A program made the position numbers and the translations under genes. From a virus, in IMG/VR virus record IMGVR_UViG_3300044527_000988, positions 1-40,711 of that record: a DNA stretch of 40,711 nucleotides; one strand, given 5' to 3'. This document shows, in pieces, positions 3,565 through 40,711 of the stretch. The notes below the pieces were generated by a model, which ran no database searches, was not told the DNA's origin, and was given only the letters and a program-made list of their open reading frames with translations. The first letter of the stretch is position 1. Each line of letters starts with the position of its first letter.

Positions 3565-3758
3565 AGCCGCACCCGAAGGGCAGCACCAAGTTCCCGGTGC
3601 GCGTGCTGGACGCGGTGTACGACCGGTGCGAGCTGTGGCTGCGCTCCGTGTGCTCCGAGGGCGCGGGCTGGGCGTACGGCTGCATCTGGACGGGTGAGCC
3701 CGCCTGCGAAGACGGCCCCTGCTGCTACGGCGGGTGCTCGACCCGGGTGACCCCGTGA
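3561..3758 (+). CDS. Cysteine-rich mini-protein
   Basis: A 65-aa protein starting at GTG 3561 with a 4-bp overlap. The last 40 residues hold seven cysteines (DRCELWLRSVC, YGCIW, ACEDGPCCYGGC). A zinc-binding or iron-sulphur fold is possible. It sits directly before the RusA gene, to which it is coupled by GTGA. Not a family I recognise. Confidence 0.6.
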   Translation: MKPHPKGSTKFPVRVLDAVYDRCELWLRSVCSEGAGWAYGCIWTGEPACEDGPCCYGGCSTRVTP

Positions 3759-4195
3759 CCGCCCCCGTCCGCCTCCGCGTGTACGGCACGCCGGGGCCGC
3801 AGGGGTCGAAGAAGCACGTCGGCGGCGGGCGCATGGTCGAGTCGTCGAAGAAGGTCGGCCCCTGGCGCGAGGCGGTGACCACCGCGGCGCAGATGGCCGG
3901 GGTCGCGGGCCTGCGCCTCGACGGGCCGCTGCTGCTGCGCGTGGAGTTCGTGCTCAAGCGGCCGCGCAAGCACTTCACGTCGAAGGGCCTGCGCCCCGAC
4001 GCGCCGCACTGGGTGACCACCACGCCGGACCTCGACAAGCTCCTGCGCTCGACCAAGGACGGCCTCGTGCAGGCCGGGGTGATCTGCGACGACAAGCTCG
4101 TCGCCGCGGGCGGCCAACACAAGCGGTACGCCAGCGAGGGCGAGACCCCCGGGGCCATCGTCGAGATCACGCGGCTGGTGGAGGGCGCGTGCTGA
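3755..4195 (+). CDS. rusA: RusA-family Holliday junction resolvase
   Basis: A 146-aa protein. RusA enzymes cut four-way DNA junctions as dimers during phage recombination and replication. The family hallmark is present: TTTPDLDKLLRSTKDGLVQAGVICDDKLV at about 88-116, with the conserved aspartates D92, D94, D112 and D113. The N-terminus RLRVYGTPGPQGSKK matches the usual beta strand and glycine loop. Length is slightly longer than the common 120-140 aa. It lies in the early operon among replication genes, coupled by 4-bp overlap upstream and 7-bp overlap downstream. Confidence 0.9.
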   Translation: MTAPVRLRVYGTPGPQGSKKHVGGGRMVESSKKVGPWREAVTTAAQMAGVAGLRLDGPLLLRVEFVLKRPRKHFTSKGLRPDAPHWVTTTPDLDKLLRSTKDGLVQAGVICDDKLVAAGGQHKRYASEGETPGAIVEITRLVEGAC

Positions 4196-4201: not shown

Positions 4202-4548
4202 ACCCGCCCTACGTGCTGATCCGGCCCGCGAACGACATCAGCAGCGACTACGACCGGCTCGACTCCGAGCCGCACCACTACCTCGCGGCCGCCATCTCCG
4301 ACCTGTCGGAGGAGTACTGGTGCGCCGGGTGGCTCATCGGCTGCGAATGGACCCTGCTCGACATGGTCGAGGGCCGCATCCCGCCCGCGTGGGGCATGGG
4401 CGAGGTCGCCGAGGCTGAGCTCGACAACCTGCGCTCGATCCGCGCCGCGTGTGGCGGCGGGTGGGTGGCGTGGGTCGGCGACGGCGTGGTCGCCCTGGCG
4501 CCCGATGAGATCGACGCGACGCGCGCGGCGCAGGAGGGCGCATGCTGA
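4189..4548 (+). CDS. Hypothetical protein between rusA and methyltransferase
   Basis: A 119-aa acidic, Trp-rich protein (WCAGWLIGCEWTLLDMVEGRIPPAWGMGE) with no motif I recognise. It starts MLTT and ends QEGAC, exactly like the neighbouring gene boundaries, because a 22-bp repeat flanks it (4180-4201 and 4533-4554). That framing suggests it entered as a cassette. Confidence 0.65.
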   Translation: MLTTHPPYVLIRPANDISSDYDRLDSEPHHYLAAAISDLSEEYWCAGWLIGCEWTLLDMVEGRIPPAWGMGEVAEAELDNLRSIRAACGGGWVAWVGDGVVALAPDEIDATRAAQEGAC

Positions 4549-4554
4549 CCACCC
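4533..4554 (+). repeat. Gene-junction repeat, copy 2
   Basis: Second copy of the junction repeat, differing from 4180-4201 at one base (A instead of G), which makes this start codon ATG instead of GTG. Confidence 0.7.
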
Positions 4555-5336
4555 CCGAGCGCCGGTGGGAGATCCGCCAAGGTGACGCCCTCGCACTGCT
4601 CCAGTCGCTCCCTGATGCGAGCGTGGACGCGCTCGTCACCGACCCGCCCTACTCGTCGGGTGGCCAGTTCCGCGGCGACCGGATGCAGGAGACATCGACG
4701 AAGTACACGGGCACCGACACCATGATCGTCCGCCCGGAGTTCGCTGGCGACAACCGCGACCAGCGTGCCTACGCCTACTGGACCGTGCTGTGGCTCTCCG
4801 AGTGCGCCCGCGTGCTTAAACCCGGCGCACCGGTCGCCCTCTTCGCCGACTGGCGCCAGCTCCCCGTCACCACCGACGCCCTGCAAGGGGGCGGGCTGGT
4901 CTGGCGCGGGGTGGCCGTCTGGGACAAGACGGAGGGTGCGCGCCCGACGATGGGCGGGTTCCGGTCGCAGTGCGAGTACCTCGTCTGGGGCACCAACGGC
5001 CCCCGCGACGCCGAAGGGATCGAGGCCGTCGGGTGCCTGCCGGGGGTCTTCCGGCACTCGGTGAGGCAGGCCGACAAGCACCACATCACGGGCAAGCCCA
5101 CGGCGCTGATGCGTGACGTGGTCCGCATCTGCCCCCCGGGCGGGCTTGTGCTCGACCCGTTCGCGGGAAGCGGGACCACGCTGGTGGCGGCGCTTGCCGA
5201 GGGCCGCCGAGGGCTCGGCTTCGAGCGGACCGAGGCGTACGCGTCGATTGCGCGCGGGCGGTGCGAGGCGGCGGAGTCGAACCGGGAGTACTCGGCGCCC
5301 GGTGAGCAGGCTGGCCTGTTCGGCGGTGCACCATGA
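4542..5336 (+). CDS. DNA N4-cytosine/N6-adenine methyltransferase (beta-class order)
   Basis: A 264-aa protein that should transfer a methyl group from S-adenosylmethionine to an exocyclic amino group in DNA. The catalytic motif DPPY is at 34-37, and the AdoMet-binding motif FAGSGTT at 207-213, followed by the usual helix (LVAALAEGRRGLGFE). Catalytic motif before AdoMet motif gives the beta-class order seen in many phage orphan enzymes. No restriction partner lies nearby. A likely role is protection from host restriction; the target sequence cannot be read from the gene. Confidence 0.9.
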   Translation: MLTTPERRWEIRQGDALALLQSLPDASVDALVTDPPYSSGGQFRGDRMQETSTKYTGTDTMIVRPEFAGDNRDQRAYAYWTVLWLSECARVLKPGAPVALFADWRQLPVTTDALQGGGLVWRGVAVWDKTEGARPTMGGFRSQCEYLVWGTNGPRDAEGIEAVGCLPGVFRHSVRQADKHHITGKPTALMRDVVRICPPGGLVLDPFAGSGTTLVAALAEGRRGLGFERTEAYASIARGRCEAAESNREYSAPGEQAGLFGGAP

Positions 5337-5539: not shown

Positions 5540-5891
5540 GCCCAGCGCCATCGCGCCCCTGATCCTCGACTGGCTCCGTACCCCGGGCCCTGACGGGCAG
5601 CTGTGGCCGTGGAAGGTCTGCGAACTCGCGCAGGGCATCGGGTGCGCGTGGACCACCGTGGCGCAGCAGGTGGCCGTGCTGGTGGAGGCCGGCCAGGTCG
5701 AGCACGCCGGCCACACGTACGCGCCCCGTGGCGTCCAGCCGAGCCTGTACCGGGCGGTCGAGGTCGCGGAGGTGGTGGAGGGTGCGCACGCTGCCCAAGG
5801 GGTGCACGAGGTGGGCCGCGTCGAAGTGGCGGGTGGCCCGTCGGTTGGTGAGCCGGTGGACGTCCACGGACGCCAGCGGGCGCGTCCATGA
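5532..5891 (+). CDS. Predicted winged-helix DNA-binding protein
   Basis: A 119-aa protein starting at GTG 5532 with GAGGTG upstream. Residues about 8-65 (IAPLILDWLRTPGPDGQLWPWKV, ELAQGIGCAWTTVAQQVAVLVEAGQVEHAGHTYAP) read as a winged helix: a recognition helix (AWTTVAQQVAVLVEAG) followed by a short wing. It precedes the putative replisome organiser by a 4-bp overlap and may act with it or regulate it. Confidence 0.6.
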   Translation: MGRPSAIAPLILDWLRTPGPDGQLWPWKVCELAQGIGCAWTTVAQQVAVLVEAGQVEHAGHTYAPRGVQPSLYRAVEVAEVVEGAHAAQGVHEVGRVEVAGGPSVGEPVDVHGRQRARP

Positions 5892-6820
5892 AGCCGAAGG
5901 GCGCCGCCTGGGGGGCGAGCTTCGCCGCGATGCCCGTGGCGGCGTGGCCGGTCATCGCCGAGCACCTGTCGCACCCGTGGCCCGAGGAGGCTGCGCGGTT
6001 CGACCTGCGGTGGTTCGCGGACCAGAACAAGCGGCAGGTCCCGGGGCGGTACGACCTCGCCGAACGCTGGGGGTGGACGCCCGACGAGGTGCGCACGCTC
6101 CTGCGCAACGCGGGGCGCTGGTGGGACCCGCTGTGGGGTCCTGCTCCGACGAAGCGCGAAGGGACTCTGACCCACGGTGACCCGGCGCGACCCAAGCTGA
6201 CCCACGCTGACCCACCGGCGACGGGCGAACCTGAGGAATCCAACACTCCTGACCCGGCGCGACCCACCGTGACCCAGGCTGACCCAACGTCGCCACAGCG
6301 CGATCCTTCTTCACCCTCACAGGCACCCACACCCCCACAGCAGGACATCCCGGCTCCGCCGGTCCAGCCCACGCTGGTCGGACCCCCGGCACCGCCGAAG
6401 ATCGACCCCCACCGCGAGGCGTGGCACACGGCGGCGCTGTTCTGGGGCTCCCAGGTCCTCCCAGCGTGCGGCCGGAAGCCCAGCAGCGGCCCGGAGAGCC
6501 CGTCGAAGGGCATCGGCTCCAAGCTCATGACCGCGGTCCGCAACGACGCCGAGGCCGTGCTCGACGCCCTGCGGTTCGTGGCGTGGAGCCAGCACAGCCG
6601 AGCGCTGCACTTCCGAGCCGAGCGGTACGACCTCGACACCGTGCTGCGGCACGTCGAGGCCTACTCCGGCCTGTGGCGCGAGTTCGGGGACAAGCCCCTC
6701 GGCGGGACGCAGGAGCGACGCACCGGAGGCCCGGCACCGCCGTCCGCCGGCGACGGGGTGCTGGACCGGCTGTGGGCGATGGAGCAGGCAGCGAAGCGGG
6801 CAGAGGAATTCGAGGCGTAG
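5888..6820 (+). CDS. Putative replisome organiser / replication initiator
   Basis: A 310-aa protein in three parts: an N-terminal domain (1-95) with a winged-helix look (GRYDLAERWGWTPDEVRTLLRNAGRW), a Pro/Thr-rich linker (about 96-175), and a C-terminal helical domain (REAWHTAALFWGS to the end). Phage replisome organisers such as lambda O share this plan: origin-binding domain, linker, then a domain that recruits the helicase loader. The linker is encoded by a 10-bp phased DNA repeat (6177-6288), as the lambda origin lies inside O. A possible loader gene follows at 7223. The assignment rests on architecture and context. Confidence 0.65.
   Translation: MKPKGAAWGASFAAMPVAAWPVIAEHLSHPWPEEAARFDLRWFADQNKRQVPGRYDLAERWGWTPDEVRTLLRNAGRWWDPLWGPAPTKREGTLTHGDPARPKLTHADPPATGEPEESNTPDPARPTVTQADPTSPQRDPSSPSQAPTPPQQDIPAPPVQPTLVGPPAPPKIDPHREAWHTAALFWGSQVLPACGRKPSSGPESPSKGIGSKLMTAVRNDAEAVLDALRFVAWSQHSRALHFRAERYDLDTVLRHVEAYSGLWREFGDKPLGGTQERRTGGPAPPSAGDGVLDRLWAMEQAAKRAEEFEA
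6177..6288. repeat. Phased 10-bp iteron array, candidate replication origin
   Basis: Five contiguous 10-bp units occupy 6177-6226: CTGACCCACG, GTGACCCGGC, GCGACCCAAG, CTGACCCACG and CTGACCCACC. Four more occupy 6249-6288: CTGACCCGGC, GCGACCCACC, GTGACCCAGG and CTGACCCAAC. The core is TGACCC. Since 10 is not a multiple of 3, each unit is read in a different frame, so the regularity belongs to the DNA, about one helical turn per unit. A less GC-rich stretch follows at about 6300-6340. Position inside a putative initiator gene fits a lambda-type origin. Confidence 0.7.
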
Positions 6821-6830
6821 GGAGGGCGAG

Positions 6831-7226
6831 ATGGTCAAGGTGTACGAGTGGAAGATGGTGCCGGTTCAGGAGATGCACACGGCCAGCGTGGACGGCTGGG
6901 AGCGGGACAGCGGCCCCGTGCTCGACGCGCTGCACTTCGCCTGCCTGATGCGCCGCGAGGTGGTACCGGGGCGGGTCACGAGCCCGGCCGCCCGCGAGCA
7001 CGTCACCGGCACCGAGGACGGGCTGGGGGAGCAGTCCGACCCGCTGCGCAACTGCTGGACGTGCGCGCACGCCGCAGACAACACCACCATCTGCCACGCG
7101 GAGCTGACCAACGAGCGGCGGGTGTGGACTCAGAGCGGCACCCACGCTCCCGATGCGAGCTCGCTGCTTGCGTGCCTCCCCGACGCCGACGGCTGCCCAG
7201 CCTGGGCCCCGAAGGCGACGCCGTGA
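6831..7226 (+). CDS. Hypothetical protein with Cys/His motif
   Basis: A 131-aa protein preceded by GGGAGGGCGAG. The N-terminus (MVKVYEWKMVPVQEMHTASVDGW) is beta-like; the C-terminal half has NCWTCAHAADNTTICH and a further Cys pair at the end, a possible zinc site. It lies between the replisome organiser and the loader-like gene. Confidence 0.65.
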   Translation: MVKVYEWKMVPVQEMHTASVDGWERDSGPVLDALHFACLMRREVVPGRVTSPAAREHVTGTEDGLGEQSDPLRNCWTCAHAADNTTICHAELTNERRVWTQSGTHAPDASSLLACLPDADGCPAWAPKATP

Positions 7227-7897
7227 GCCGCTCGATCCGGGAGGCCATCCTCGGCGCGTGGAAGGTGCTGGAGGGCGCCGGCCTGCGCCGCCCCTGGGGG
7301 AGCGACCACGAGGTCGCCAACGCCCTCGACACCTGGGCCCTGGTGCTCGCCGACGTCGAGCCGGGCCGCCTGCTGGTGATGGCCACGGCCTGGCTGCGCT
7401 CGCCGGAGGCGCGGTTCGGCCGCTGGCCGATGCCCGGGGCGCTGCTGCACGCCCTCGGCGACAACGTCGAGACGGACGAGGCGGACGAGGCGTGGGGCGA
7501 GGTGCTGGCGCTGCTGCAGTCGAGGGGGCGCGACTGGTGCTGCCGGAGCGTGCCCACCGTGCAGGCGCTGGTGGACCTGGAGCAGGCGATGCGCGAGCGC
7601 GTGCAGGAGCTCCGCACCCGCGGGGATGCGCTCCTCGCCGAGCAGCAGGAGCGGCGGAGGGCTGGGCTGCCGAAGGGGCCCGAGGACCGGCTGGTCGCCG
7701 TGTTCGCGGGCCTGTCCGCCTGTGGTGGATGGCGCGGGCTCGCGGTGTCGGAGGACCTGGTGGCGCACCGGGCCGCGTTCCGGGCCGCGTTCCGTGGCAC
7801 GACCAAGCGCCGGCAGCTCGAGGGGCAGGAGGCCGAGGTGGTCGCCCTGCTCGGTGGTGGGCCGAGGCCCCGGCTGCTGGCTGGGGGTCGCCCGTGA
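7223..7897 (+). CDS. Possible helicase-loader-like protein
   Basis: A 224-aa helical protein starting at GTG 7223 (GTGA overlap). Residues about 25-80 read DHEVANALDTWALVLADVEPGRLLVMATAWLRSPEARFGRWPMPGALLHAL. This resembles the N-terminal region of phage helicase loaders of the G39P type: W..L.D.....v..A...L.......P..G.L. Position directly downstream of the initiator-like gene supports a loader. The remainder is charged and helical (QAMRERVQELRTRGDALLAEQQERRR). The similarity is a weak pattern, not a demonstrated match. Confidence 0.45.
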   Translation: MSRSIREAILGAWKVLEGAGLRRPWGSDHEVANALDTWALVLADVEPGRLLVMATAWLRSPEARFGRWPMPGALLHALGDNVETDEADEAWGEVLALLQSRGRDWCCRSVPTVQALVDLEQAMRERVQELRTRGDALLAEQQERRRAGLPKGPEDRLVAVFAGLSACGGWRGLAVSEDLVAHRAAFRAAFRGTTKRRQLEGQEAEVVALLGGGPRPRLLAGGRP

Positions 7898-40355: not shown

Positions 40356-40468
40356 GGCTCCCGCCTGTTCAGCGCGGCCCACCACCGGGCGCAGACGTGG
40401 TCTGGGGCGAGGCCGACGACGGCCAGCACGAGGATGACGAGGGCGGCGGCGACGAGTTGGTCACCCAT
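40352..40468 (-). CDS. 38-aa membrane peptide
   Basis: ATG 40468 lies inside the last codons of the Cys/His gene (8-bp overlap). The peptide is MGDQ, a hydrophobic helix (LVAAALVILVLAVVGLA), then PDHVCARWWAALNRREP. One membrane pass with a basic C-terminal tail. Function unknown. Confidence 0.65.
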   Translation of the reverse strand: MGDQLVAAALVILVLAVVGLAPDHVCARWWAALNRREP

Positions 40469-40711
40469 GGAGCACGCCCCGCACCTGCAGCAGCCGCATC
40501 GGGCAGACGTTCCGGTGCGCGTTGATGTCCTCCGTGCGGTACAGCCGCCAGCACGAGTCGCAGTGTGTGCAGTGGCACCGCGGGTCACCGTCACGCCAGG
40601 GCCGCGGCCCGGCGTCGCGGGCCTTGACCATGGCCACGAGGAGCGGCCACGCTTCTTCGGCAGGCATCGCGTTGACGTGCGCGATGACGTCGGCGGCGGT
40701 CGGGTCGCGGT
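40458..40711. repeat. Terminal direct repeat, right copy (contig overlap)
   Basis: This is the second copy of bases 1-254. Joining the two copies restores one continuous leftward operon: the 38-aa gene at 40352-40468 overlaps the end of the gene whose full copy lies at 4-351. The single mismatch suggests two phage haplotypes in the sample, or one base-call error. Confidence 0.9.
40461..40711 (-). CDS. Partial second copy of the 4-351 gene (cut by window end)
   Basis: Same protein as at 4-351 but truncated at its N-terminal side by the contig end. It carries Asp where the first copy has Glu (WRDGDPRC versus WRDGEPRC) because of the single mismatch between the terminal repeats. On the circular genome the two entries are one gene. 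Confidence 0.85.
   Translation of the reverse strand, partial: RDPTAADVIAHVNAMPAEEAWPLLVAMVKARDAGPRPWRDGDPRCHCTHCDSCWRLYRTEDINAHRNVCPMRLLQVRGVLHG

Follow-up and report, generated by a model that had tools for sequence, protein, structure and literature searches.

The window analysed here is a stretch of viral DNA of 40,711 nucleotides, in which positions 5888-6820 of the forward strand encode a protein of 310 aa. We regard this gene as a putative replication initiator, based on its open reading frame, AlphaFold2 (AF2) modelling and the family matches of its relatives. Upstream of it lie genes for a RusA resolvase (3734-4195; PF05866, 1.2e-11) and a DNA methyltransferase (4542-5336; PF01555, 3.1e-27). 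Downstream, also on the forward strand, the gene at 7223-7897 is a candidate helicase-loading partner. Homologues of this gene are found 3' of the initiator in two relatives, L001 (85% identity) and L067 (37%), and the protein 3' of the initiator in a third, L046, shows a weak helicase-loader match (phrog_2289, E 0.016). The product of 7223-7897 itself gave no confident family match in Pfam or PHROGs, and no confident helicase or loader was identified in the window. The first 30 nucleotides of the window recur at 40458, which fits direct repeats of ~254 bp at the ends (40458-40711), with the same tandem unit at 211 and 40668. The record is probably that of a genome that can be closed to a circle or has redundant ends.

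The AF2 models indicate an N-terminal helix-turn-helix, a Pro/Ala-rich, disordered linker that bears the repeats described below, and a helical C-terminus. In the full-length model the helix-turn-helix is confident (residues 33-73) and the helical C-terminus is of low confidence. The predicted DNA-binding domain covers residues ~17-80 (5936-6127, forward strand), with a putative recognition helix at residues 65-73 (6080-6106, forward strand); modelled alone with 12 sequences it reached a mean pLDDT of 81.8, the helix-turn-helix again at high confidence. No wing strands were predicted in this domain. The original prediction was of a winged-helix/linker/helical protein; the models do not support its winged element. 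The C-terminal helical domain (6398-6706, forward strand), which is 95% identical in L001 and has homologues by hhalign in further relatives, is a putative helicase or loader contact.

No family match to the window protein was found in Pfam (no family at E<=1), PHROGs or NCBIfam, and the Pfam search gave no RepA_N (PF06970) domain. Fold searches with the helix-turn-helix domain (Foldseek/VIA) returned many helix-turn-helix regulators and no significant match: the top VIA rows were complex-I subunits, whose Z of 5-6 is lower than the level the tool itself regards as trustworthy, and a Z of 3.9 to the DnaD N-domain (2v79) was not relied on. As these searches gave nothing significant, the assignment of the N-terminus as a putative DNA-binding helix-turn-helix rests on the model together with the domain swaps considered below.

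Two phased arrays in the linker

The linker-coding DNA contains nine copies of [C/T]GACCC (YGACCC) in two forward-strand blocks with a 10-bp period. Block 1 (6168-6217) has five units, starting at 6168, 6178, 6188, 6198 and 6208, and block 2 (6250-6289) has four, starting at 6250, 6260, 6270 and 6280. The steps between successive starts are therefore 10, 10, 10, 10, 42, 10, 10 and 10 bp. The intervening spacer (6218-6249, unstranded) is partly conserved, with the pattern CGGCGAC..GCGAAC..AATC. The units are short, non-palindromic direct repeats in which no inverted symmetry was seen; within them the core is kept while the spacer bases vary. YGACCC occurs 71 times on the forward strand of the 40.7-kb window and 43 times on the reverse strand, and no 10-bp-phased pair was found outside the array on either strand. 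Two 10-bp blocks of five and four units had been proposed previously, and both the repeats and their period hold. The position given for block 2 (6249-6288) was correct to 1 bp, but that for block 1 (6177-6226) was 9 bp off: there is no unit in its last 10 bp (6217-6226), nor does one start at 6218. The shared order of the two blocks is borne out by a 17-mer, TGACCCGGCGCGACCCA, that begins at 6178 in one and at 6250 in the other.

When the linker was recoded 20,000 times with synonymous codons, the seven phased pairs were never reached; the maximum was five. In a less post-hoc test, in which the best 5-mer and any period from 7 to 30 competed across the whole gene, the observed phasing was reached by 0/2,000 synonymous recodings and 0/2,000 codon shuffles, and no stretch elsewhere in the genome scored above 4. 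A generic four-unit column test did not mark the window array, taken alone, as exceptional (its 10-bp score came second to period 24), because only about six columns are fixed. Relatives were therefore needed, and the case for the window array rests on the word test together with these. In an unbiased search over periods of 7-30, 11 bp was the best period in the initiator gene of every relative. Among 172 control windows from the same loci, no 10- or 11-bp period reached a score of 33; the five that did reach it had codon-compatible periods of 12, 21 or 30.

Exchange of the putative DNA-binding domain together with its repeats

The closest relative of the window initiator is that of L001, a viral contig of 27,963 bp. 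The two proteins are 95% identical over residues 171-273 in the C-terminal region, while their N-terminal domains have diverged (41% identity). The L001 linker has no GACCC array; it carries two blocks, each made of five CCRCCAGC units with an 11-bp period. At the DNA level, identity between the window and L001 is 93-97% up to ~5840, falls to ~40-70% from there to ~6367, and is 93-100% beyond this point through the core of the C-terminal domain. Because the flanks are 93-97% identical and the interior has diverged, the ~500 bp at 5841-6367, which hold the helix-turn-helix domain, both blocks and the GCGCG element and A/C-rich stretch discussed below, were exchanged as one unit.

Relatives L046, L047, L050 and L056 have CCGCCAGC blocks at 11 bp with a 43-bp step between blocks, both as in L001. 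They also share an L001-like recognition helix (WGWTDWAVK vs WGWSDWAVK), here joined to an unrelated C-terminus. Since the repeat and N-terminal types of L001 recur together on an unrelated C-terminus, the repeats follow the N-terminus and not the C-terminus. Variation in the DNA-binding domain tracks repeat type across the window, L001 and L046: WGW[ST]DWAVK accompanies CCRCCAGC (L001/L046), and WGWTPDEVR accompanies YGACCC (window).

The window N-terminus used alone as query found no relative. A profile search with the N-terminus added L067, L068, L069, L070/L071, L078, L083, L084 and L085, each with two blocks in the linker and with repeat cores including CTACCACTCCC, CCTCCAGCCCG, CTCCAGC, ACCAACCG, GTCCAGC, GGGCCAGC and CCTCCAGC. 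The C-terminus of the window protein is homologous to those of L067, L068, L071, L078 and L083 (pairwise hhalign probability 93%, E 2.4e-7). A YGACCC array with a 10-bp period was seen in no close relative, which leaves the window as the sole example of this variant; a tblastn search of cultured phages with the window protein and a search of genome contigs gave no relatives. A pattern scan of viral contigs for YGACCC at 10 bp returned 43 stretches, the majority being simple-sequence repeats of GACCC or arrays of an unrelated kind. Only a few of these fall in replication-like proteins (L022, L037, L005), and the bare motif is thus not diagnostic. Viral contigs L003, L004, L012 and L042 contain long CGACCCTGCT tandem arrays (10 bp) adjoining 9-bp arrays; these have the look of plain tandem repeats with no link to initiators.

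Conserved geometry and the DNA that follows block 2

All 11 relatives have two 11-bp-phased blocks. From the start of the last unit of block 1 to that of the first unit of block 2 the step is 42 bp in the window and 43-44 bp in 9/11 relatives. This step of 42-44 bp corresponds to about four helical turns. The outliers are L084, which has one extra site between the blocks (16 + 27 = 43), and L071, with a step of 56. The proposal that selection acts on the DNA and not on the peptide is supported by this comparison: all relatives keep 11-bp DNA arrays while both the unit and the peptide change, block spacing is conserved, and no relative was found that retains the peptide and has lost the DNA phase.

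Directly 3' of block 2, 9/11 relatives have CACGCGCG. It is read in frame 0 in L069 and L085, in frame 1 in L046, L056, L068, L071, L078 and L083, and in frame 2 in L084; being encoded in three reading frames, it is a DNA element and not a peptide one, which again argues for selection on the DNA. The element is an alternating purine-pyrimidine sequence, found for example at L046:2858-2865, L069:3331-3338 and L084:920-927. The window version is CCACAGCGCG (6293-6302, unstranded), and the counterparts in L001 and L067 are CCATCGCGCGCG and CACGGGCG.

Next to this element lies an A/C-rich stretch of relatively low GC content (6303-6361, unstranded), a candidate unwinding element. At a GC content of 0.67 against a gene mean of 0.73 it is the weakest version of this feature, which is clear in most relatives, where GC goes down to 0.30. 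The 60 nt after the CACGCGCG-type element fall in the lowest-GC 0-9% of the gene in 12/12 cases (window and relatives), with a coding-strand A+C content of 0.67-0.83. The less GC-rich patch noted earlier after the arrays is present in the window in a mild form (6300-6349, GC 0.62 against the gene mean of 0.73).

Comparison with origins inside known initiator genes

A search with L048, an array-bearing DnaD-like initiator, reached cultured phages and lambdoid O proteins. In gene O of HK620 the depositors annotated a two-piece rep_origin; it coincides exactly with ACCAGC repeated at 11 bp in two blocks, and AT-rich DNA follows. O genes of the HK620/P22 type (HK106, ST160 gp18) have the origin inside the initiator linker, as proposed for the window, and resemble it in the short direct repeats in two blocks; in these phages an AT-rich stretch follows the repeats, and a helicase or P gene lies directly downstream. 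The block step in HK620 is 44 bp, and its ACCAGC core resembles the CCAGC of relatives L001, L046, L069 and L085. HK620 differs from the window in unit number (3 + 3 against 5 + 4), period (11 against 10) and core (ACCAGC against YGACCC). The HK620/P22-type and window proteins have no detectable sequence similarity, the window is GC-rich and HK620 lacks CACGCGCG. The O genes of HK106 and ST160 score low in the four-unit search owing to short blocks that stand apart, and Pantoea PA-1 showed no clear array.

The lambda origin lies in the middle of O and consists of four 18-bp inverted-repeat iterons and an AT-rich region, and the O protein has an N-terminal DNA-binding domain and a C-terminal partner-binding domain joined by a flexible linker (PMC7466680, PMC6022878). 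The window shares the position of the repeats within the middle of the putative initiator gene, and its protein is predicted to have this layout. However, each lambda iteron is bound by an O dimer, whereas the window has nine short direct sites, one per turn, and no lambda-type 18-bp inverted-repeat iterons. The original comparison with lambda therefore holds for an origin inside O but not for the form of the iterons, for which the HK620-type O is closer.

Plasmid initiators of the RepA_N family offer a further parallel. In pSK41 the origin, with four Rep boxes, occupies DNA of rep that encodes the linker, and in pPR9 a natural swap has replaced ~500 bp of N-terminal domain and origin while the C-terminus is >97% conserved (PMC5703833), the kind of event seen between the window and L001. 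In both plasmids, as proposed for the window, the origin sits in a dispensable rep linker and is bound by the N-terminal domain. Most iterons of the RepA_N family are direct repeats of semi-palindromic form (PMC7145576), and these initiators have a winged helix-turn-helix, unlike the window protein with its lack of a predicted wing or RepA_N Pfam match. In SPP1, oriL lies within gene 38 and combines direct repeats with an AT-rich unwinding element, and initiation requires the loader gp39 and the helicase gp40 (PMC6316719). SPP1 shares with the window direct repeats inside the initiator gene, but has a second origin, oriR, and no sequence similarity to the window was seen.

Proposed function of the arrays

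We consider it highly likely that the arrays are the iterons of a phage theta-replication origin that lies inside its own initiator gene and is bound by the product of that gene. Read from the sequences, the evidence comprises the repeats, their phasing and conserved geometry, the cassette exchange, the way the repeats track the N-terminus and the frame-independent element downstream. In L085 a DnaB helicase gene lies directly downstream of the initiator (PF03796, 7.7e-58; phrog_19, 6e-75). The initiators of two other relatives match replication families: L067 matches phrog_345, 'replication initiation O-like', over the linker and C-terminus (E 3.3e-4), and L068 matches phrog_19658, 'replication initiation protein' (1.5e-4). 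Together with the swap of N-terminus and repeats and the annotated HK620 origin, these findings support the placement of the arrays as in lambda O that was first suggested. Cumulative GC skew, which had been proposed as a check, has no turning point at 6.2 kb and gives no support. The DnaB-type gene of L085 (L085:3302-4627) overlaps the end of the initiator gene. In L071 (3900-5552) and L083 (3968-4474) a ParB_N-domain protein takes the place of the window-type downstream gene directly 3' of the initiator, with a Pfam match in L083 and a similar start in L071.

We infer DNA binding, melting, helicase recruitment and origin use along the following lines. The N-terminal helix-turn-helix would bind each YGACCC, one protomer per helical turn; as the sites are direct and non-palindromic, all protomers would lie on approximately the same face of the DNA. 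Given that the blocks are about four turns apart, the nine protomers may form a single nucleoprotein wrap of ~120 bp. Such a wrap would strain the adjoining GCGCG and A/C-rich stretch (6293-6361), and the C-terminal domain would bring the helicase or its loader. The iterons and the domain that reads them would make up a cassette for specificity that can be exchanged ahead of a replisome-matched C-terminus. The origin-in-initiator architecture is known and the class of mechanism is not new; what is new is the family of the protein, together with the YGACCC unit at 10 bp.

The arrays could also be an operator, through which the helix-turn-helix protein regulates its own gene or the early operon while replication starts elsewhere. 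Autoregulation would equally suit a helix-turn-helix protein whose gene contains its sites, and origin activity is itself our reading of the arrays, on which GC skew is silent. We nevertheless judge this unlikely: the sites lie ~280-400 nt inside the gene and not at a promoter, and an array of nine or ten phased sites with low-GC DNA next to it has the anatomy of an origin. The adjoining DnaB gene of L085, the O-like PHROG matches and the matching layout of the HK620 origin also speak against an operator. The two roles are in any case compatible and not exclusive.

Plasmid parC loci of the R1 type consist of two sets of five 11-bp repeats, and the resemblance to two sets of about five repeats at ~11 bp raises the idea of a centromere-like or packaging site bound by one adaptor protein per helical turn. 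An ATPase for such a system might be host-encoded or distant, but no ParM/ParA-type gene was seen beside the arrays, whose neighbours are replication genes, and the repeats are part of the gene for the protein proposed to bind them and are exchanged together with the N-terminus of that protein; we find this very improbable. Least probable of all, and rejected on the recoding tests and control windows, is that the repeats are a peptide repeat or slippage by-product of a low-complexity Pro-rich linker with no role at the DNA level, for although the linker is Pro/Ala-rich and disordered and codon-multiple repeats occur elsewhere in such genomes, a period of 10/11 is no codon multiple, synonymous recoding destroys the phasing (0/20,000), the unit core is kept while spacer bases vary, block spacing is conserved, a DNA motif appears in three frames and the controls gave only periods of 12, 21 and 30.

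DnaD-like initiators and wider implications

Arrays with a period of 11 bp (or 22 bp) were also found in the linkers of DnaD-like 'helicase loader' genes of cultured phages (L091-L096, L100, L102-L104). The phages concerned include Listeria vB_LmoS_188, Lactobacillus Lrm1 and phiAT3, Pseudoalteromonas HS2, Cellulophaga phi18:3, a Vibrio phage and two Staphylococcus phages. These genes resemble the window family in having phased linker arrays, recovered by the same unbiased search, and often lie directly upstream of dnaB/dnaC-type genes. In the phage records examined, the arrays carry no origin annotation, and in the open-access literature we found no paper that presents such 11-bp arrays as common to phage initiators in general.

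We tentatively suggest that this may be a widespread design, convergent or anciently shared, in which unrelated initiators (the window family, HK620/P22-type O and DnaD-like proteins) write the origin into their own disordered linker, with one site per helical turn (10/11 bp); HK620 and the window family have the sites in two blocks separated by about four turns. The reading domain and its iterons would then be a portable ~500-bp cassette that fits different C-termini, and CACGCGCG a further origin element beside the melting site in the window family. For a family of phage genes that lacked annotation, the analysis proposes a function and an origin. It also offers a sequence-only origin test for metagenome phages, namely a linker array whose period is no multiple of a codon, in two blocks spaced by about four turns. 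The natural swap series (the window, L001, L046 and others) is a data set for a code relating iteron to recognition helix, and bears on how replication specificity may change while the replisome interface is kept. The anatomy seen across the relatives is unusually clean, enough to merit a bench test, and the 11-bp arrays of cultured Listeria, Lactobacillus, Staphylococcus and lambdoid phages make the reading testable now.

The DnaD-like genes differ from the window in belonging to a different N-terminal family and in often having one block of 4-5 units; that of Staphylococcus Henu2 has a 22-bp superperiod. Most of their arrays were reached by 0-1/300 recodings, with those of Pseudomonas Orisa03 and Shewanella 3/49 weaker (2/300).
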